DNA from: a virus
IMG/VR virus record: IMGVR_UViG_3300042923_000470
Span: 1-46,566 of that record
Reading direction: 5' to 3' (one strand)
Length of the DNA stretch: 46,566 bases
The number at the start of each line of letters is the position of its first letter. The stretch's first letter is position 1. Below are positions 1,140 through 46,566 of this stretch, in pieces. The notes under the pieces are model-generated. The model had not been told where the DNA came from and made no database searches. It was given only the letters and a program-made list of their open reading frames with translations. The translations under genes were made by a program, and so were the position numbers.

Positions 1140-1982
1140 ATGTGTATAATTGTAGCTAAAAATAAAGGTATTAAAATGCCATCTTTTGAGATATTAAAGA
1201 ATTGTTGGAACAGTAATAGTGATGGGGCAGGAATGTCTTGGGTAGAAAATGGAGTTGTTAAGGCTAAAAAAGGCTTTATGACATGGAATCACTTCTCTAA
1301 ACACTTAAGAAAACTGGAAAAAAGAGTTGATTTAGAGAATACTGACGTAATAATGCACTTTAGAATCACTTCTGTTGGTGAAACACTGGCTAAAATGACT
1401 CATCCTTTCAGAGTTGATGCTAATGATGATAAAACACGAACATTATTGAATATGGAAGGTAAAATGTTCATGTTTCATAACGGAACAATCTCTAGCATAA
1501 GAGCTTTAGAGAAGAAATACTCAGATACATTTGCTTTTGCTAAGTCAATAGCGTACCCAATGTACAAAACTGACAGAAACTTCCATCTAAAACCTAATTT
1601 TATTGAGATTATGGAGACAATTATTAATGGAGATAAGTTAGCTTTCATAACTACAAAAGGAATTAAGCTAATCGGAGATTTTAATGAGAGTGAAGGAGTT
1701 AGTTATTCTAATTATGGCTACGAAGATTGGAGTCAATTCTACACAAAAAAGTACACTTACCTCAGCGATACTCCTACAAAAATGGAATATCTTGCATCAG
1801 TGAACCGAGTTCAACCAGAATTACCTCTGATATACATGGATTATACTATAGACAACATAGAGAAATTTAAGCTTGACTTTTACTATGAAATAGAAACTAT
1901 AGGAGAGTGGGAAATGGCTTTTCCAGACCATAAAGAGAATTTTATGTTAATATATGAATTAGAGCAAATGGGGGTATTGTAG
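1140..1982 (+). CDS. Class II glutamine amidotransferase (Ntn hydrolase)
   Basis: The start is placed at ATG 1140, two bases after the previous stop, because this gives MCIIVAKN. Removal of Met would then expose the catalytic Cys2 required of N-terminal-nucleophile amidotransferases; an in-frame ATG 21 bases upstream would bury it. Further class II signatures seen are NSDGAGMSW, IMHFRITSVG, the THPF element and FMFHNGTIS. These enzymes hydrolyse glutamine and release ammonia for a partner synthetase. The gene lies between two amidoligase paralogues, so the simplest inference is that it supplies ammonia or an amidated product to them. At 280 residues it is a stand-alone domain; the C-terminal 100 residues show nothing recognisable. 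The family is confident; the partner is inferred from context. Confidence 0.85.
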   Translation: MCIIVAKNKGIKMPSFEILKNCWNSNSDGAGMSWVENGVVKAKKGFMTWNHFSKHLRKLEKRVDLENTDVIMHFRITSVGETLAKMTHPFRVDANDDKTRTLLNMEGKMFMFHNGTISSIRALEKKYSDTFAFAKSIAYPMYKTDRNFHLKPNFIEIMETIINGDKLAFITTKGIKLIGDFNESEGVSYSNYGYEDWSQFYTKKYTYLSDTPTKMEYLASVNRVQPELPLIYMDYTIDNIEKFKLDFYYEIETIGEWEMAFPDHKENFMLIYELEQMGVL

Positions 1983-3353
1983 ATGAGATTTGTTGTAGGT
2001 GATAAAGTAAGAATTGTTTCACAAAGACCTGAACATTACAATTTTATAGATGAGATGGAACAGTATTTAGGAAGAGAATACACTGTTAGAAGTGTAGAAG
2101 GAGTGCATTACTATTTAGAAGGGTTAATTTATAGTTGGAACGAGGAATTTATAGAAGGTTTTGCAACTGGTGAGCCTGCCCCACCAATAATGGAAAGCTG
2201 TACTCGTTGTGGTAATAGACATTTAGCTTCTGAGTTAACTTTTATTCCTTGGAGTGGTAATCTTTGTCCTAATTGTGTTGAAAACAAAACTTTTGTATGC
2301 TCTGATTGTGGACGTAGAGCAATAGGCGACCCATCAAGGACATTATGTGAAGATTGTAGCTTTTATTGTAGGGATTGTGGTACTGTAATTTCAAGAGAGC
2401 AAGCTAGGTCGCATAATAGTAGATGCGAGGTTTGTTTTGATAAACCTAGAATACATGATTATAATTACAAACCTATTTTTACTAAGTTTGGAGAGAGTCC
2501 TGATAATAGGTTCTTTGGATTAGAGTTAGAAATTGATGGAGGAGGACGAGACGTAAATAAGTATGCTCAGATAAACGAATTATTTCCAGAACAGTTCACC
2601 TATGCAATGTATGATGGTTCTCTTGATAATGGTTTTGAGATAGCTACTCAACCTGCGTCGTTAAAGTTCTTAAAGGCTATTGATTGGAATGAGTTTGCTA
2701 GACGAACAAAAGACTTAGGTTACAAAGCAGACCAAACAGCTACGTGTGGATTACATGTTCACATAGACTTAAAAGCATTTGGGTTAACAGAAGATGCACA
2801 AGAACTTACATTAGGTAGACTATTCTACTTCTTCTCTAAGTTTCAAGAGTACATCATTAAATTTAGTAGACGTAGGAGAATGAGTTTTGACAGATGGGCA
2901 AGAATCACAGGTGTAAATACTGTAAATGCTGTAACTGCTGTAAAGAATCTAAAAGATTCTGGTGACAAGTACCATGCACTTAATTTAAGCCATCAAGGAA
3001 CTGTTGAGGTAAGGATATTTAAAGGAACAACTAATCCAAAGAAGATAAAAGCAACATTAGACTTCTGTGACGCTTTGATTGATATTGCAAATACTTGTAG
3101 TTTGCAAGACATTCAGACTAACGAATGGGAATACTTTATAGAGAACTTCTTTCAAAAGAAGAGCCTTCTAACATATCTTAAAACAAGAGGGCTTTTAGAA
3201 AAACTACCAGAACAAGTAGTAACAGCACCTAAACCCTATACAGTAGAATGGATGTCAGAAGAAGTATTATCTCCTAGGTGTGTGGAGATAGAACCTCCAT
3301 CTCCATTTGAAGAGTTTTTAGAAAATGAAGGCTTAATAGGAGATTTCTTTTGA
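1983..3353 (+). CDS. Zn-ribbon amidoligase (Amidoligase_2 family), second paralogue
   Basis: The ATG immediately follows the preceding TAG. Of 456 residues, 1-60 form a beta-rich SH3/KOW-like segment (VGDKVRIV). About residues 70-155 hold CxxC pairs (CTRC, CPNC, CSDC, CEDC, CRDC, CEVC) typical of zinc ribbons. About 170-400 is the amidoligase domain with RFFGLELEID, CGLHVHIDL, HALNLSHQGTVEVRIFKGT. Arrangement and motifs match the gene crossing the junction, so the two arose by duplication, but they have diverged throughout. The C-terminal 55 residues are proline- and acid-rich and have no counterpart in the other copy. Expected activity is ATP-dependent ligation of an amine to a carboxylate; the target is unknown. 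Confidence 0.85.
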   Translation: MRFVVGDKVRIVSQRPEHYNFIDEMEQYLGREYTVRSVEGVHYYLEGLIYSWNEEFIEGFATGEPAPPIMESCTRCGNRHLASELTFIPWSGNLCPNCVENKTFVCSDCGRRAIGDPSRTLCEDCSFYCRDCGTVISREQARSHNSRCEVCFDKPRIHDYNYKPIFTKFGESPDNRFFGLELEIDGGGRDVNKYAQINELFPEQFTYAMYDGSLDNGFEIATQPASLKFLKAIDWNEFARRTKDLGYKADQTATCGLHVHIDLKAFGLTEDAQELTLGRLFYFFSKFQEYIIKFSRRRRMSFDRWARITGVNTVNAVTAVKNLKDSGDKYHALNLSHQGTVEVRIFKGTTNPKKIKATLDFCDALIDIANTCSLQDIQTNEWEYFIENFFQKKSLLTYLKTRGLLEKLPEQVVTAPKPYTVEWMSEEVLSPRCVEIEPPSPFEEFLENEGLIGDFF

Positions 3354-3475: not shown

Positions 3476-3677
3476 TTGCCCACCGAATGAGCATGGATTA
3501 GAGGACTTAGCTTTAATAGATACCAAAGAAGCTAAGGCAATGATGAAGAGAAGGATTGGTGTAGTTGAGTACATACCGAAGCATAGAAGGTTCTTATGTG
3601 TTAGGATGTTTTCCATAAGTGGAAAAAAGACTTATATAGAAAGTTGTGATGAAAATACCTTGACAAAATTGACTTAG
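3453..3677 (+). CDS. Hypothetical SH3-like protein, 74 aa
   Basis: A strong GAGGAGG site lies just upstream of the ATG. The start VVGTRVSCPP resembles the VGDKV-type beta-barrel openings of the neighbouring amidoligases and the proteins at 45264 and 46320, so it may be a stand-alone version of that SH3-like module. Two KxxR-rich strands follow. The last 18 bases of the gene overlap a consensus promoter. Function unknown. Confidence 0.7.
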   Translation: MVVGTRVSCPPNEHGLEDLALIDTKEAKAMMKRRIGVVEYIPKHRRFLCVRMFSISGKKTYIESCDENTLTKLT

Positions 3678-3688
3678 TGTGATATAAT
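3660..3688 (+). promoter_or_regulatory. Consensus sigma-70/sigma-A promoter
   Basis: TTGACA at 3660-3665 and TATAAT at 3683-3688, separated by exactly 17 bases, match the housekeeping consensus perfectly. It would drive the short leader with an inverted repeat and then the genes from 3757 onward (small membrane peptide, thyX and the replication block). Confidence 0.85.
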
Positions 3689-3756: not shown

Positions 3757-3849
3757 ATGAAAATAATAATAGTGTGGGCATGTTTAATATATATAATTTG
3801 TTTATTTAATTATGAAAGGTGTGTTAATAATGAAAGTAATAGCAATTAA
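3757..3849 (+). CDS. Small membrane peptide, 30 aa
   Basis: ATG is preceded by AAAGAGGTG at good spacing. The product begins MKIIIVWACLIYIICLF, a single hydrophobic helix, then a short polar tail. It overlaps the start of the next gene. The same arrangement, a tiny single-helix gene overlapping the start of a related gene, recurs at 45145-45273 / 45264, which supports its reality. Function unknown. Confidence 0.5.
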   Translation: MKIIIVWACLIYIICLFNYERCVNNESNSN

Positions 3850-4294
3850 AGATGGGTTTGGTTATCGAAGTTTTAGGAAAGGTAATGTTTTCAATGCAGG
3901 CAAGCATTTTGTACTTGATGATTCGTATAATAGAATATGTGATGTAGGAAGTATGTATTATAGAGAGTGTTTTAAAGAATATAAAGAGGAGGAGATAAAA
4001 ATGGAATTTAAGAAAAGTGATTTACAAGATGGAGATACTGTTTTTTATGGAGATGGTGGTAAAAGAATTGTTAGAGGCAGTAGTTTACTCGATGAGAGAG
4101 GGGTTGCACGCCTTAGCTTAGATAGAATTAACGAGGATTTGACTCACAAGGACTCACCTACTTTAAATATTGTGAAAGTAATTAGAACAACTGTAGAGAC
4201 TTTATTTGAGAGAGAAGAAGTTAAAGAGGTTACGATGGATGAGATTGCTAAGTGGCAAGGAGTGAAAGTAGAGAATCTAAAGGTGGTGAAATAG
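3830..4294 (+). CDS. Hypothetical two-domain protein, paralogue of the 45264 gene
   Basis: ATG 3830 is preferred over the in-frame ATG at 3812 because AAGGTG lies eight bases before it. The 154-residue product has an N-terminal beta-rich part and a C-terminal part (MEFKKSDLQDGDTVFYGDG ... FEREEVKEVTMDEIAK) that aligns with MKFGKKDLEQGDIVEY ... FEREEVKVTMTIEEIEAK of the protein encoded at 45264-45824. Both end in a small helical segment. Known function: none. The stop codon overlaps the GTG of thyX by one base. Confidence 0.75.
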   Translation: MKVIAIKDGFGYRSFRKGNVFNAGKHFVLDDSYNRICDVGSMYYRECFKEYKEEEIKMEFKKSDLQDGDTVFYGDGGKRIVRGSSLLDERGVARLSLDRINEDLTHKDSPTLNIVKVIRTTVETLFEREEVKEVTMDEIAKWQGVKVENLKVVK

Positions 4295-17087: not shown

Positions 17088-17938
17088 GATGTAGTTCATT
17101 AGGAACAATAATGGGATTGAATTTTCATAAGAACGCTTACAAACAATTTATGTTAGACACTGGTAAAGTTACAGACGAGCCTACCTCTATCGGAGAGAAG
17201 AAAATGGAGGCAGGAAAAGCAATGGAAGAAGTAATTATCCAGATGTATGAAAAAAGGTCTGGTAATAAAGTACATCATCCAGATGTACAAATACAGTATA
17301 GAAAAGGCAAATTAACTGGTCATATGGATGGTTTTGTTACCTTCATTACAGAAGATAAGTGTCCTTTAGAGATTAAAAACACTACTTTGAATTTAGGTTC
17401 TTGTGCTGAGGATATGGATAGGAATTATTATGCACAGGTTCAAGGGTATATTTATATCACAGATTCAGAAAAAGCTGTGTTTTGTTATCTTAGAAACGGT
17501 TGGGATTTATGCTACTTTGACGTTCCTAGAGACGACGAGTTTATAGAAGAAATGTTACTAGCTATAGATTGGTATGAGGATTGCTTAGAAAAAGGCTTCT
17601 TCAATGAGCCAGTAGTAGAGGTGGAAAGTAAAGAAATGCCCATTGATATTCTACTTAACGTAGGTTTACATGAGATGAGTAGAGAGTTTGCACAGTTGAA
17701 AACACAAAGCAAAGAATTAGAAGAACGACAAAAGGAACTAAAGCAAGAAATTACTGAGATTCTAGGAGATAATTATGGTAAGCTAAACGCTAGTGATTTT
17801 ACCTTAGCTTATCGTTCACAGTCTCGTAAAGGTGGTCTTGATGAAAAAGCCTTAAATGAAGTAGTTGATGTTGAGCATTATAGAAAAGAGCCAAGTGTAT
17901 TTTCAGTATTAGACATAAGACAAAAGGGGGACATTTAA
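17084..17938 (+). CDS. YqaJ-type recombination exonuclease (PD-(D/E)xK)
   Basis: Of 284 residues, the catalytic core of the lambda-exonuclease/Cas4-like nuclease fold is visible: MEAGKAMEE, GHMDGFV (Asp), PLEIKNTT (E-x-K) and YYAQVQGYIYIT (the Q-x-x motif). The C-terminal third is a charged helix (QLKTQSKELEERQKEL). In phages it works with a ssDNA annealing or RecA-like protein, here the Sak4-like ATPase, to process DNA ends. Confidence 0.87.
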   Translation: MRCSSLGTIMGLNFHKNAYKQFMLDTGKVTDEPTSIGEKKMEAGKAMEEVIIQMYEKRSGNKVHHPDVQIQYRKGKLTGHMDGFVTFITEDKCPLEIKNTTLNLGSCAEDMDRNYYAQVQGYIYITDSEKAVFCYLRNGWDLCYFDVPRDDEFIEEMLLAIDWYEDCLEKGFFNEPVVEVESKEMPIDILLNVGLHEMSREFAQLKTQSKELEERQKELKQEITEILGDNYGKLNASDFTLAYRSQSRKGGLDEKALNEVVDVEHYRKEPSVFSVLDIRQKGDI

Positions 17939-20904
17939 TGTTGTTAAGCAATAAGTTTTTAGATAAGTATAGGGGGAAGGCTAATCCCTTCCCTACAGCA
18001 TTAGGAGAGTTTGTATATTACCGAACATATTCTCGTTACAAAGAGGCAGAAGGTAGAAGAGAAATGTGGTGGGAAACAGTTCGTAGAGCTGTAGAATATA
18101 ATTGTAGTTTGGTTAAAGGTGTTAAGACAAAAGAAGCTGAGCAGATGTTTGATAACATTTATAACCTAAGACAATTTCCATCTGGACGTACCTTATGGGT
18201 AGGAGGAGAACAAGTTTCCTTAGACGTTCCAACAGCAAATTTTAATTGTGCTATGAATATCATCGACCAATTAAAAGCATTTTACGACACGTTCTACCTT
18301 CTTTTAGTAGGTTCAGGGGTTGGTATCAGAATACTTAAAGACGATGTAAAGAAGCTACCTAGATTCAGAACAGACTTTTCAGTACATATGAAACCTTACG
18401 AACCTGTGGTAAAATCAGAGAGGATACAAAAAACTTTTGTAGATGGTTTTAATAATACTTGGTATATTGTTGTTGGAGACAGTAAAAATGGATGGGTTGA
18501 TTCTTTAAAAGCTTTATTTGAAATATTAACTAATGAAACCAAGGCTGAGCATATAAATATTGCTGTTGATTTTGATAATGTACGCCCAAAAGGAGAATTA
18601 CTAAAAACATTTGGTGGTTTTGCATCAGGGCATGAAAGTCTACAAGAAATGTTTGAAAAAATAGCTACAGTAATTCAAACCTCCACTGGCGAGTTAAAAC
18701 CTATCGATTGTTTGGATATTATATGTATGATTGGTGAGAATGTAGTCGCAGGAGGTACGAGAAGGACGAGTATCATGGCTATGATAGATGAAGATGATAA
18801 TGAGTGCATCACAGCAAAGAACGATTTATATGACGCTGAGGGCGAGCTTAATAAGGCACTTTCACATAGACGCACTAGCAATAACTCTATACTATACTTT
18901 AAAAAGCCTACAATGGAGCAACTTAAATGGCAAGTTGAGCAAATGAGATATACTGGCGAACCTGCTTTTGTAAATATGGTTGCAGGTAGAAAAAGAAAGC
19001 CCAATATGGAAGGTGTTAATCCATGTCTGACAGGGGGTATGAAACTCTTAACTGTAGATGGGTATAAAACTTTTGAAGAACTTGTAGATACAGAGCCTTT
19101 AATTATAAGTAAAGACGGCGATGTATCAAAAAGTAAAGTTTGGTGTTCGGGTACTAAAGAGATTTATGAAATTAAAAGAGGCAATAAAACGCTTATCACC
19201 TGTACTAAAGACCATAGATTTATGACTATTGATAAAAAAGAAGTTGAAGCACAGTTTCTAAAAGGTGAAAGACTTATGCCTTATATTAAACCCCCTGTAC
19301 TAGAAGATGTTTTGATGGTTAAGTTAGGTTTTATACAAGGAGATGGTAATTTAAGTAGACTAAAAAGCGAAACTCACAAAGGCTTAGAAGTTAATTTTAG
19401 TCATAAAGATAGGGATGTAAAGGATTTATTTGGATACAAGGGTGTTGACAGGACATATTACACCTCTGAGTATAACGAAGTTCTGAAAGGGTTAGGTTTT
19501 TCAAGTGAAAATTTACCATTGAGACAACTTCCAAAACCAATAAGTAGATGGGAGGATTCAGAGCAAAAAGCATTTTTAAAAGGACTTTATTCTGCTAATG
19601 GTAGTGTTTTATCAAATGGTCGAGTTACTCTTAAATCAACTTGTTTAGAACTAATAACTGGTGTACAAGAGCTACTTACTAAATTTAGTATATTCAGTTA
19701 TATTACAACAAACAAAAGTAAACTTGTTAAATTTTCAAATGGAGAGTATGTTTGCAAGGAAAGTTATGACTTAAATATACAGGAGTACATGAGTCGTTTA
19801 GAGTTTTGTAATGCAATAGGATTCATACAAAGCTACAAGACAGATAGGTTAACGTATACTTTAATTGAACAGTCACCTAAAGTAACTTCTGTAAAGAGTT
19901 TAGATAAGGTAGAAAAAGTCTATGACTTCACAGAGCCTTTAACACATTGGGGAGTTGTAGAAGGTTTTATTGCACATAACTGTGGTGAAATCCTTCTAAA
20001 AAATAGACAGATGTGTAACCTAACAACTGTAAATGTTTTAGCTTTTGTCACAGAAGAGAATACTCTGGACTGGGATGGTTTACTAGAAGCTCAGAGACTA
20101 TCTGTTAGAATGGCTTTAAGAATGGCTAGTGTAAAATTAGAACTAGAGGGTTGGGATGATGCTTCTGAAACTGTAACAGGATGTTCTCTTACTGGTTGGG
20201 AAGATGCAATGAATAGATTAGATGCAAGGTACACACAAAGAAGTTTAATAGAGGATGCTTTAAATGAAGTGTCTAAAGAAGAAGCAGGGTATTACGCTTT
20301 AGAAATTGGAGTTACACCACCTGAGTTAGTTACTACTATTAAGCCAGAGGGTACAATTTCTCTATTACCTACTGTAAGCTCAGGTATGCATTTTAGTCAT
20401 TCACCTTACTACATAAGACGTGTTAGAATTAATAAAGACAATCCATTATCTAAAGCTATGAGAGCAATGGGTTTTGTTGTAGAGGATGATGTAACAAATA
20501 GTAATTTAGATGTAATCAGTTTTCCTGTTTTAGCACCAGAAGGAAAAACAAAATATGATATATCTGCGTTAGAACAATTACGTTTATATAGAAATATTAT
20601 GAAGAACTATGTAGACCATAATGCAAGTAACACAATTCATGTAAGAAAGCATGAGTGGGAAGGTGTTACAGATTGGCTTTATGAGAATTGGGATGATGTA
20701 GTAGCGGTTAGTTTCTTACCTTTAGATGATGCAGTTTATAAACAAATGCCATTTGAAGCTGTAACTAGAGCTGAATACAGAGATTTAGTTGGGCGTACAC
20801 CTAAGTTTGACCCAGAGGTACTTCGTAAACTAGAAGAAGTACATACAGAATTTGACATTGGAGATAATGATGAGTGTTCAACAGGTATTTGTCCTATTAG
20901 ATAA
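17938..20904 (+). CDS. nrdJ: Adenosylcobalamin-dependent (class II) ribonucleotide reductase with intein
   Basis: It converts ribonucleotides to deoxyribonucleotides with vitamin B12 as radical source and needs no oxygen. The precursor is 988 residues; removing the 319-residue intein leaves 669, near the size of monomeric class II enzymes. Redox and radical cysteines are visible: NFNCAM (about 103), NP-CGE (radical Cys, first residue after the intein), QMCNLTT, and the C-terminal pair CSTGICPIR that shuttles electrons. TIKPEGTIS is the finger-loop region. Host supply of cobalamin is implied. It is the last gene before the bidirectional terminator. Confidence 0.93.
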   Translation: MLLSNKFLDKYRGKANPFPTALGEFVYYRTYSRYKEAEGRREMWWETVRRAVEYNCSLVKGVKTKEAEQMFDNIYNLRQFPSGRTLWVGGEQVSLDVPTANFNCAMNIIDQLKAFYDTFYLLLVGSGVGIRILKDDVKKLPRFRTDFSVHMKPYEPVVKSERIQKTFVDGFNNTWYIVVGDSKNGWVDSLKALFEILTNETKAEHINIAVDFDNVRPKGELLKTFGGFASGHESLQEMFEKIATVIQTSTGELKPIDCLDIICMIGENVVAGGTRRTSIMAMIDEDDNECITAKNDLYDAEGELNKALSHRRTSNNSILYFKKPTMEQLKWQVEQMRYTGEPAFVNMVAGRKRKPNMEGVNPCLTGGMKLLTVDGYKTFEELVDTEPLIISKDGDVSKSKVWCSGTKEIYEIKRGNKTLITCTKDHRFMTIDKKEVEAQFLKGERLMPYIKPPVLEDVLMVKLGFIQGDGNLSRLKSETHKGLEVNFSHKDRDVKDLFGYKGVDRTYYTSEYNEVLKGLGFSSENLPLRQLPKPISRWEDSEQKAFLKGLYSANGSVLSNGRVTLKSTCLELITGVQELLTKFSIFSYITTNKSKLVKFSNGEYVCKESYDLNIQEYMSRLEFCNAIGFIQSYKTDRLTYTLIEQSPKVTSVKSLDKVEKVYDFTEPLTHWGVVEGFIAHNCGEILLKNRQMCNLTTVNVLAFVTEENTLDWDGLLEAQRLSVRMALRMASVKLELEGWDDASETVTGCSLTGWEDAMNRLDARYTQRSLIEDALNEVSKEEAGYYALEIGVTPPELVTTIKPEGTISLLPTVSSGMHFSHSPYYIRRVRINKDNPLSKAMRAMGFVVEDDVTNSNLDVISFPVLAPEGKTKYDISALEQLRLYRNIMKNYVDHNASNTIHVRKHEWEGVTDWLYENWDDVVAVSFLPLDDAVYKQMPFEAVTRAEYRDLVGRTPKFDPEVLRKLEEVHTEFDIGDNDECSTGICPIR
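19024..19980 (+). mobile_element. Intein with LAGLIDADG-like domain inside NrdJ
   Basis: This in-frame 319-residue insertion begins with Cys (CLTGGMKLLTVDG, splicing block A) and ends FIAHN, followed by Cys+1 of the host protein. Block B is TCTKDHRF (T-x-x-H) and block F is VYDFTEPLTHWGVVEGF. The homing endonuclease part has two motifs: LGFIQGDGN, intact, and LKGLYSANGS, where the usual Asp is Asn. The Asn may lower or change cleavage. The insertion point lies directly before the thiyl-radical cysteine of the NPCGE motif, so the reductase needs splicing to be active. Confidence 0.93.
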
Positions 20905-40966: not shown

Positions 40967-41038
40967 TGGTGGCAAAAGGGGAGTCGAACCCCATCTTTCG
41001 GAAGATGACCGATAGCAATACCATTATACTATTTCGCC
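40967..41038 (-). tRNA. tRNA-like gene with abnormal anticodon arm (isotype undetermined)
   Basis: A perfect 7-bp acceptor stem (GGCGAAA/TTTTGCC), discriminator A and encoded CCA, a tRNA-Gly-like D-arm and a TTCGACT T-loop are present. The anticodon arm does not fit: the canonical register gives stem TCGG/CCGA with loop TCATCTT (position 33 is C, not U), while the stronger stem CATCT/AGATG leaves a 6-nt loop. The T-stem has only four pairs. Probably degenerate or specialised. Confidence 0.6.
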
Positions 41039-41213
41039 TTAATTAGTTTTCCCTGTTTATAACCCTTACTCCACAGGAGCTACCCCGAATACCTAATGGC
41101 ATCTAGTAACTGTATATTGGTGATCATCGACACATCATTAATCCAATATACGTTTTGTTTTTATAGGGAGCTACCCTAAAGGAAATTTATATCTTATTAC
41201 TTAAATTTCAATT
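41039..41213 (-). other. Inter-tRNA spacer with hairpin and duplicated motif
   Basis: The 175 bases between tRNA genes hold a 9-bp inverted repeat (GTATATTGG 41112-41120 / CCAATATAC 41143-41151) and two copies of GGAGCTACCC (41077-41086 and 41167-41176; on the minus strand GGGTAGCTCC, like a tRNA D-arm). No complete tRNA is seen. They may be remnants of deleted tRNAs or processing signals. Confidence 0.5.
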
Positions 41214-41298
41214 TGGCTGTCCTATCTGGGCTCGAACCAGAAACCTTCTCCTTAACAGTTTTCAAGACTGTCGCAATAATCCACTCTGCCAACCTTCC
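41214..41298 (-). tRNA. tRNA-Ser(TGA), apparently chimeric or degenerate
   Basis: The anticodon arm ACAGT-CTTGAAA-ACTGT (anticodon TGA), the serine-type D-arm (GCAGAGTGGATTATTGC), the T-arm TCTGG-TTCGAGC-CCAGA, discriminator G and CCA are clear. However, 5' strand GGAAGGT and 3' strand TAGGACA of the acceptor do not pair (one of seven positions). The variable arm is not a clean hairpin. It looks like the 5' part of one tRNA joined to the 3' part of another. Confidence 0.65.
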
Positions 41299-41301
41299 TT
41301 A

Positions 41302-41386
41302 TGGTACTTGAGGAGGGAGTCGAACCCTCAATCCTTTCGGCGTACGCTTCTAAGGCGTATGCATATTCCAGTTCTGCTACTCAAGT
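41302..41386 (-). tRNA. tRNA-Leu(TAG)
   Basis: Acceptor ACTTGAG/CTCAAGT pairs fully. Anticodon stem TACGC/GCGTA encloses loop CTTAGAA. A long variable arm, T-arm GAGGG/CCCTC and encoded CCA complete a normal class II tRNA. Confidence 0.93.
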
Positions 41387-41390
41387 ATAA

Positions 41391-41466
41391 TGGTCGAGAG
41401 AGTGAGACTCGAACTCACGTTTACATGCTTCCAAGGCACGTTTCTTTCCTATTAGAAGACCTCTCG
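41391..41466 (-). tRNA. tRNA-Pro(TGG)
   Basis: Acceptor CGAGAGG/TCTCTCG, starting with C1 as is usual for proline tRNAs. D-stem TTCT/AGAA, anticodon loop CTTGGAA in stem CGTGC/GCATG, T-arm GTGAG-TTCGAGT-CTCAC, discriminator A and encoded CCA. Confidence 0.93.
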
Positions 41467-41481
41467 ATTGTGGTTTTTTAT

Positions 41482-41559
41482 TGGGGTGACCGAGGAGATT
41501 TGAACTCCCATTCACTAGATTCACAGTCTAGCCGCTTAACCATTTTGCGTACAACCAAC
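41482..41559 (-). tRNA. tRNA-His(GTG)
   Basis: Anticodon stem CTAGA/TCTAG with loop CTGTGAA (anticodon GTG), T-loop TTCAAAT, discriminator C73 opposite an extra 5' G(-1), both histidine identity features, and encoded CCA. The acceptor stem is weak, with three G-U pairs and one mismatch. Confidence 0.85.
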
Positions 41560-45148: not shown

Positions 45149-45273
45149 AAGAAAAACAACGATCACTTATTAGTAAGGAGGATATACACCTAGCTATCAC
45201 AGGAGCTTTAGTATTGCTTGCGTTTTATGTAATAACAATCTTAATATCGAAAGGAGCAGTTAAATGGGTTTAG
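45145..45273 (+). CDS. Small membrane protein, 42 aa
   Basis: The ATG overlaps the upstream TGA, and the end overlaps the next gene by 10 bases. A polar N-terminus is followed by a transmembrane helix (AITGALVLLAFYVITILI) and a basic end. It occupies the same place relative to its neighbour as the 30-residue peptide at 3757, although sequences differ. Confidence 0.6.
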   Translation: MKEKQRSLISKEDIHLAITGALVLLAFYVITILISKGAVKWV

Positions 45274-45824
45274 AGATAGGAGCTGAAGTAAGGGTTACAG
45301 AGGATTTTAAGCATAATGGAGTTTCTTTTAAGGCAGGTAGTATAGGAGAGGTCAAGCATGTTCATGAACATACCTATAGTATGGATTGGGACTTCTACGA
45401 TGAAGCTTTTCATAGTTGTGGTGGATTTTGCGGAACTAAGTATGGGTTTTATATAGATAAAAGTACTGTAGAAAAATTAGAAAGGGTTGATGAGATGAAA
45501 TTTGGAAAGAAAGATTTAGAACAAGGAGATATTGTAGAATATGCGTGTGGTGAGAAAGGAAAACTTATTAAGGATTTATTTACTGATGCTAAGGGAGGGT
45601 ATAGTTACCTAGCTAATTTTAATGAAGGCTTAATAAACAAACTTAGCTCTGGGTACAGTATTAAGAAAGTTTACAGGACAAGCACTGATAGCAAAATGTG
45701 TTTATTCATACCAAACGATTATTACAAAGTAGTCTTTGAGAGAGAAGAAGTGAAAGTTACAATGACTATCGAAGAAATAGAAGCAAAACTGGGTTACAAA
45801 ATAAGCATTGAGGGGGAGAAATAA
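45264..45824 (+). CDS. SH3-like two-domain protein, paralogue of the 3830 gene
   Basis: AAAGGAGCAG precedes the ATG. Residues 1-75 are an SH3-like barrel (IGAEVRVTEDFKHNGVSFKA ... HSCGGFCGTKYGFYIDKS) closely matching the N-terminal segment of the amidoligase at 46320 (HSCNGNCEDGYGYYLPKG). Residues 80-186 match the C-terminal region of the 3830-4294 product. The protein is thus a mosaic of two modules used in the same locus. Function unknown. Confidence 0.75.
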   Translation: MGLEIGAEVRVTEDFKHNGVSFKAGSIGEVKHVHEHTYSMDWDFYDEAFHSCGGFCGTKYGFYIDKSTVEKLERVDEMKFGKKDLEQGDIVEYACGEKGKLIKDLFTDAKGGYSYLANFNEGLINKLSSGYSIKKVYRTSTDSKMCLFIPNDYYKVVFEREEVKVTMTIEEIEAKLGYKISIEGEK

Positions 45825-46319: not shown

Positions 46320-46566
46320 ATGTTTAGTGTTGGAGATAAAGTAGTTTGTATAAGTGGTTATCACCCTGTTATAGTTGGGGATAAAGGTATTGTGTGTGAT
46401 ATACATCAGTATGATGGTGGGTTTATTGGAGTTAAGTGGGATAGGGTTGGAGAGCATTCATGTAATGGTAATTGTGAAGATGGTTATGGTTATTATTTAC
46501 CTAAAGGTAGGCTTAAAAAAGTTATGGAGAAGCCAGATTGTTGTACAAAGTGTGGGGAGGATAGAG
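46320..46566 (+). CDS. Zn-ribbon amidoligase, 5' part (continues at position 2)
   Basis: AAGGGAGGATTAGTA precedes the ATG. The visible 82 residues comprise an SH3-like segment (MFSVGDKVVCISGYHPVIVG ... YYLPKGRLKKV) and the first zinc knuckle CTKC. The frame runs across the overlap into the gene ending at 1138, giving a protein of about 450 residues. The SH3-like segment is shared with the protein encoded at 45264, showing domain reuse. Confidence 0.85.
   Translation, partial: MFSVGDKVVCISGYHPVIVGDKGIVCDIHQYDGGFIGVKWDRVGEHSCNGNCEDGYGYYLPKGRLKKVMEKPDCCTKCGEDR
46535..46566. repeat. Terminal direct repeat, right copy (circle overlap)
   Basis: Identical to positions 1-32; see the left copy. It marks where the linear representation was cut within a gene. 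Confidence 0.9.

Follow-up and report, generated by a model that had tools for sequence, protein, structure and literature searches.

What do two amidoligases (ALs) and a class II glutamine amidotransferase encoded side by side in a phage genome do together, and what might they modify? The three genes lie in IMG/VR virus record IMGVR_UViG_3300042923_000470, which was analysed over its full length of 46,566 nucleotides (referred to below as the window). From the fold, the catalytic residues, the gene coupling and the duplication of the ligase, we propose that the first ligase (AL1), the amidotransferase (GAT) and the second ligase (AL2) constitute a cytoplasmic, glutamine-dependent amidation unit of the early region, with a probability of about two in three; this figure refers to the enzymatic coupling and not to the substrate.

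Genome and gene organization

The window is a circular phage genome with a true circle of 46534 bases. Comparison of the window ends revealed a terminal repeat of 32 bases (1-32 identical to 46535-46566), and joining 46320-46566 to 33-1138, which skips the repeat, gives a single open reading frame of 450 amino acids that is broken if the repeat is kept. The circle rests on this overlap and the restored frame, because the junction pattern gave no match when searched in other contigs. The sequence-only reading had placed an amidoligase across the circle junction (46320 to 1138), and the restored frame, with its start ATG at 46320 on the plus strand, is indeed that of AL1.

GAT follows at 1140-1982 (+; 280 amino acids), its likely start being the ATG at 1140 (MCII...) rather than the TTG at 1119, and AL2 at 1983-3353 (+; 456 amino acids), with its ATG immediately 3' of the GAT stop codon. 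Since only 0-2 bases separate the AL1 stop from the GAT start and the GAT stop from the AL2 start, the three genes are very likely co-translated. Promoter-like matches within the trio occur at chance level only. A perfect consensus promoter (TTGACA-17-TATAAT with an extended TG) is present just 3' of the trio, at 3660-3688 (+).

The core genes (terminase, portal, capsid, helicase, primase, polymerase and dUTPase) match those of the Paenibacillus larvae podovirus-like phage API480 with 29-49% identity and in largely conserved order. The relatives and the G+C content of 35% suggest a host in the Bacillota. Both AL and GAT are absent from API480, the nearest annotated relative, so the function of the trio is dispensable. 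The trio falls within the accessory region on the early side, before the helicase gene; at this place API480 has ardA together with many small genes. The neighbours of the trio are genes of early DNA metabolism (thyX, helicase, primase, polymerase and dUTPase). The endolysin comprises an M15 peptidase and a peptidoglycan-binding domain.

Elsewhere in the window, a class II (B12-dependent) ribonucleotide reductase (17938-20904, +) contains an apparent intein with a LAGLIDADG homing endonuclease at residues ~398-681, and four tRNA genes lie at 40967-41558 (-), one of which is predicted as a tRNA-Asp whose anticodon, ATC, is unusual. An 18 kb IMG/VR contig (L264) from record set 3300042922 encodes a capsid protein 100% identical to that of the window; the same record set also contains the AL-GAT contigs L016 and L018.

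Family, fold and active site of the amidoligases

Both ligases score above the gathering threshold (22 bits) of Pfam Amidoligase_2 (PF12224), AL1 as the joined protein with 28.7 bits (E 1.6e-6) and AL2 with 40.1 bits (E 5e-10), which bears out the earlier assignment of a second amidoligase to 1983-3353. They share 36% identity, and both match phrog_16683 (E 1e-53 and 7e-56), a family of phage proteins to which no function has been assigned. The YbdK NCBIfam cut-off was not reached, and single-sequence scans of viral contigs gave no match.

An AlphaFold2 model of AL2, built with 40 relatives, has a pLDDT of 82, with the catalytic part mostly >90 and the N-terminus at low confidence. Foldseek searches with this model matched YbdK (1r8g), gamma-glutamylmethylamide synthetase (7cqn), glutamine synthetase and Dop/PafA, with E-values against the PDB of 7.5e-5 for YbdK and 5e-4 for glutamine synthetase; these enzymes have the same ligase fold at ~10-14% identity. 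The catalytic domain of AL2 (residues 170-405, 2490-3197) is thus predicted to be of the glutamine-synthetase/YbdK fold. Its catalytic-domain residues are E181-x-E183, D211-x-S213, E219, G256-x-H258-x-H260, R297, N334, T340 and E342-x-R344. The corresponding domain of AL1 spans residues 214-448 (425-1129), with E-L-E at 225-227.

The E-x-E, D-x-S, G-x-H-x-H and E-x-R motifs conserved in Amidoligase_2 are present across 248 ligases. In AL2 numbering, E183, D211, E219, G256, H258, N334, E342 and R344 are identical in all 248 and E181 in 247, while position 213 is S in 239 and T in 9, and position 260 is H in 236 and N in 12.

The class II glutamine amidotransferase

GAT misses the gathering cut-off of Pfam GATase_4/6 (18.8 versus 23 bits) and matches PF13230 at E 8e-4, below the curated cut-off; 14 of 42 GAT relatives match GATase_4 at E <= 0.001. 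The sub-threshold score was treated as divergence, because the class II fold and residues are present. The AlphaFold2 model (pLDDT 81) matched the glutaminase domain of GFAT/GlmS and PurF in Foldseek, which identifies GAT as a class II enzyme with a predicted GlmS/PurF glutaminase (Ntn) fold. Profile alignment places R75 (HFRI), HPF and H113-N114-G115 of GAT on HTRWATHG, NSHP and HNGII of GFAT, respectively.

The candidate nucleophile Cys2 (codon 1143-1145) directly follows the ATG at 1140, as expected of the class II amidotransferase with Cys2 that had been described between the ligases, and in a set of 42 GATs no variation is seen at C2, R75, N114, G115 or D129. Conservation of the active sites among homologues had been set beforehand as one of two tests that could refute the system: E-x-E proved near-invariant in the 248 ligases, and Cys2 is retained in 42/42 GATs. 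Such conservation makes it very probable that the ligases and GAT are enzymatically active and subject to strong selection.

Coupling of ligase and amidotransferase genes

Co-occurrence of the genes in other phages, which the sequence-only reading had suggested as a check, was examined in IMG/VR with 80 ligase loci and 80 GAT loci from an independent query, the partner being sought within about 6 kb, and in a bacterial sample of 80 ligase loci, mostly from Ruminococcus and other Oscillospiraceae. Related contigs in these samples are not independent, but widely differing hosts and types of phage are represented. GAT was present at 72 of the 80 viral ligase loci (in two of the other eight a contig edge lies just 3' of the ligase), a ligase at 79 of the 80 viral GAT loci, and GAT at 79 of the 80 bacterial ligase loci. 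Ligase and GAT are on the same strand in all pairs, the ligase comes first in 226/229, and the median gap in viruses is 5-13 bases. Across the 160 viral loci, AL was found in 152, GAT in 135 and the next family (terminase-like) in 45, with no third gene comparably conserved around the pair. Amidoligase-GAT pairs are among the most tightly coupled phage accessory genes, and the second outcome that could have refuted the system, a failure of the genes to co-occur elsewhere, did not arise.

In GenBank, the ligase query matched 25 of 50,697 phage records. An adjoining GAT was seen directly in six loci (L003, L004, L005, L006, L008 and L262), and other Marvin-type mycobacteriophages have a GAT match at the same place; C. 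difficile phage AR1086-1 is the exception to this pairing. The pairing reaches phages of Bifidobacterium, Acinetobacter, Stenotrophomonas and Alcaligenes, and a Mycobacterium plasmid. C. difficile-type phages of ~130 kb and similar contigs (L007, L024, L033, L035, L039 and L041) have a ligase and no GAT nearby, so the ligase can exist without GAT.

Several further loci were inspected individually. A plasmid of Mycobacterium paragordonae has a class II GAT gene (L252:4699-5640) that adjoins an amidoligase and does not appear in the listed gene table. Two proteins (L259:5001-5894 and L255:5001-6215) match both GAT and gamma-glutamyl cyclotransferase (GGCT) profiles and appear to be GAT-GGCT fusions. 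A candidate AL-GAT fusion of 723 amino acids (L231:1674-3842) in a metagenome-assembled genome was not counted, since its ligase part probably carries a frameshift at the end, with the GAT ribosome-binding site and ATG-TGT retained. Co-evolution of AL and GAT, assessed from distance matrices, was rejected as evidence, the tree-distance correlation being no higher than the genomic background.

Two ligases beside one amidotransferase

The AL-GAT-AL layout of the window also occurs in L018 and, more widely spaced, in L013; L021 and L043 have an AL-AL-GAT layout, and L090 has two ALs and two GATs. In L013, L018 and L021 the two ligase copies are mutual nearest relatives in the tree, which indicates that the ligase was duplicated several times. 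For the window, the relation of AL1 to AL2 was left unresolved in a 111-row tree, and a smaller tree of 38 rows groups the two as sisters (84% SH-aLRT); duplication within the phage is the favoured origin, as judged from these trees. All duplicate copies retain the active site, which argues against a dead ligase partner. The recurrent and apparently independent duplication of the ligase beside one GAT suggests two substrates and one ammonia source.

Zinc ribbons and SH3-like segments

The zinc ribbons that had been noted on the ligases are real. N-terminal to the catalytic domain, AL1 contains eight CxxC pairs (residues 75-192; 33-361, with the first pair at 46542-46553, before the junction) and AL2 six (73/76, 95/98, 106/109, 122/125, 129/132 and 148/151; 2199-2435), which from their number would provide about four and about three zinc sites, respectively. 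Across 41 homologues, eleven of the AL2 cysteine positions show conservation of 90% or more, and the size of the array differs among ligases. A profile of the AL2 zinc-ribbon region matched LIM domains, the best being that of CRP1 (1b8t, E 1.4e-4), and the amidoligase matches in a Foldseek search of viral models included one phage protein with the name 'LIM domain containing'. The array is termed LIM-like and not LIM, because the canonical spacing (a 2-residue link between zinc sites) is absent in AL2, where the links are 7 and 3 residues. A strict tie between zinc ribbons and GAT was considered and discarded, 15 ligases of GAT-selected loci having no CxxC pair.

The SH3-like segments noted earlier held up in part. 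The N-terminal domain of AL1 (residues 1-68, 46320-46523) matches phrog_22041 at E 5.1e-7, and Pfam SH3_12 only at E 0.064, below the cut-off; the SH3-like part of AL2 is weak (phrog_7488, E 6e-4). By eye, the AL1 segment resembles the N-terminus encoded by gene 45264-45824, which lies upstream and in its C-terminal part resembles gene 3812-4294, as in a shuffled family of small phage domains. The segment is therefore no special feature of the ligases, since a similar one occurs in a neighbouring, unrelated gene.

The sequence-only reading took these modules to dock on a specific protein or nucleic acid. Protein would be the more natural partner for the ribbon arrays, given their profile similarity to tandem protein-binding modules of the LIM type. 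That the trio amidates a carboxylated base of phage DNA or tRNA is highly improbable: the trio does lie among the early DNA-metabolism genes and many zinc ribbons do bind nucleic acid, but the annotated genes include none for base hypermodification and the array is LIM-like rather than of a nucleic-acid-binding type.

The same arrays bear on whether the trio might amidate or otherwise modify carboxylates of host or phage proteins, either Glu/Asp side chains or the C-terminus, so as, for instance, to put a host defence factor out of action. The match to a protein-binding module, the conserved cysteines in arrays of differing size, the membership of PafA/Dop, which act on proteins, in the fold family, and the antirestriction gene ardA in the corresponding early region of API480 are all consistent with such a target. 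However, no conserved partner protein is known, neither GAT nor AL2 (the two scanned) matched a PADLOC defence model, and many of the ligases linked to a GAT have only few zinc-binding pairs or none at all, which indicates that docking is dispensable for the pair. We regard a protein target as possible but doubtful. A more specific version, in which the zinc-ribbon domains are exchangeable docking heads and the two ligases with their shared glutaminase amidate acidic residues of two host proteins early in infection, is decidedly unlikely.

Proposed mechanism and candidate substrates

Based on what is known of the enzyme families, the amidation unit would work as follows. Removal of the start methionine would expose Cys2 to give an active Ntn-type GAT, which would hydrolyse glutamine to release ammonia. 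Each amidoligase would use ATP to convert a substrate carboxylate to an acyl phosphate, and attack of ammonia on the latter would yield a primary carboxamide. The single GAT would supply both ligases, probably of different substrate, and the variable LIM-like zinc-ribbon arrays may recruit GAT or the substrate. The ligases had been expected to form amide or isopeptide bonds; amidation (COOH to CONH2) would be the likelier of the two because the partner enzyme produces ammonia, and isopeptide ligation is correspondingly disfavoured.

A peptide-modifying role, with host wall peptides, host proteins or the virion as targets, had been suggested for the trio, and these targets are guesses; no experimental substrate for AL-GAT pairs was found in the accessible literature. 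An export signal is not obvious in the trio proteins, which points to a substrate in the cytoplasm. Our tentative first choice is a cytoplasmic peptide precursor of the cell wall: amidation of one of its carboxylates (on D-isoglutamate or diaminopimelate) would alter the wall while the infection proceeds, for instance as protection against a second phage. A wall role has been proposed in the literature for the phiEco32 and RIO-1-like cassettes (PMC5498523, PMC10580990), and related cassettes have D-Ala-D-Ala-ligase and ATP-grasp neighbours, which was counted in its favour. The identified hosts of AL-GAT carriers are all bacteria, which was also counted for a wall substrate, yet host range does not discriminate as a test of the wall reading. 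The wall is not the substrate of the whole ligase family, because related ligase folds occur in the eukaryotic giant virus Catovirus (Foldseek against viral models), whose hosts lack peptidoglycan. As a guess, the candidates rank as wall precursor, protein, small metabolite and nucleic acid, with something else for the remainder.

Comparison with known systems

The amidoligase-GAT pairing pointed out in the sequence-only reading supports a functional unit but is not new: it has been known since about 2009 and is on record for phiEco32, LUZ24-like phages, RIO-1, Marvin and OM43 phages. An AL with a class II GAT is described as a 'peptidoglycan modification cassette' of phiEco32, LUZ24-like and RIO-1-like phages (Iyer et al. 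2009 and Hardies et al. 2013, as cited in PMC5498523 and PMC10580990), and a cassette has been reported from UFV-P2 (PMC3890496). As in the window, the early region has a PF12224 ligase and a class II GAT side by side, and profile comparison shows homology to the UFV-P2 AL (E 1e-9), the UFV-P2 GAT (E 1e-11) and the phiEco32 AL (E 9e-11). In contrast to the window, phiEco32-type cassettes also contain genes for GGCT, ATP-grasp and COOH-NH2 ligase: the window ORFs gave no match to the ATP-grasp and COOH-NH2 ligase of UFV-P2/QDWS535, and the best match of the GGCT profile to the window had an E-value of 0.23. The window thus holds the core pair and not the full cassette. The UFV-P2 and QDWS535 ligases start at the catalytic domain, whereas the window has two ligases with zinc ribbons.

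These differences also bear on an auxiliary role in nitrogen or amino-acid metabolism, in which glutamine nitrogen would be passed to small amides or gamma-glutamyl metabolites that feed phage replication. For Phage-ZRK32, whose genome encodes AL, GAT, GGCT and glutathione synthase, such a role has been proposed, and gamma-glutamyl cyclotransferase is included in, or fused to, some modules. For the window it is unlikely: homologues of GGCT, ATP-grasp and the COOH-NH2 ligase are lacking, bulk metabolism needs neither large docking arrays nor duplicated ligases, and zinc-ribbon loci also occur in Ruminococcus chromosomes and elements.

The OM43 phages MEP401/MEP402 and Mycobacterium phage Marvin (gp105/gp106) have an adjacent AL-GAT pair in the same order, and differ in having a single ligase, with 23-32% identity. 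The closest ligases, with up to 38-40% identity, are found in Ruminococcus/Oscillospiraceae loci (L169-L248), which share the zinc-ribbon array (6-7 CxxC). Their GAT is of another class II subtype (MCCLFG...), their context is chromosomal or that of an element, and there is as a rule one ligase per locus. MurT is a relative of the Mur ligases and GatD a class I amidotransferase. The two-component, glutamine-dependent logic of the trio resembles that of peptidoglycan amidation by MurT-GatD in Staphylococcus aureus (PMC3267633), with no homology between the proteins.

What sets the window apart as a variant is the minimal AL-GAT-AL arrangement together with multi-zinc-ribbon ligases. The latter are shared with rumen and gut Bacillota loci, and Iyer et al. 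2009 may already mention zinc ribbons; in two papers found for amidoligase together with zinc ribbon, the only amidoligase mention located was the citation of Iyer 2009. The compact AL-GAT-AL unit offers a clean test object: its active sites are intact, its zinc-ribbon domains can be removed and the remaining genes of the cassettes are absent, and three small soluble proteins suffice for asking what is amidated.
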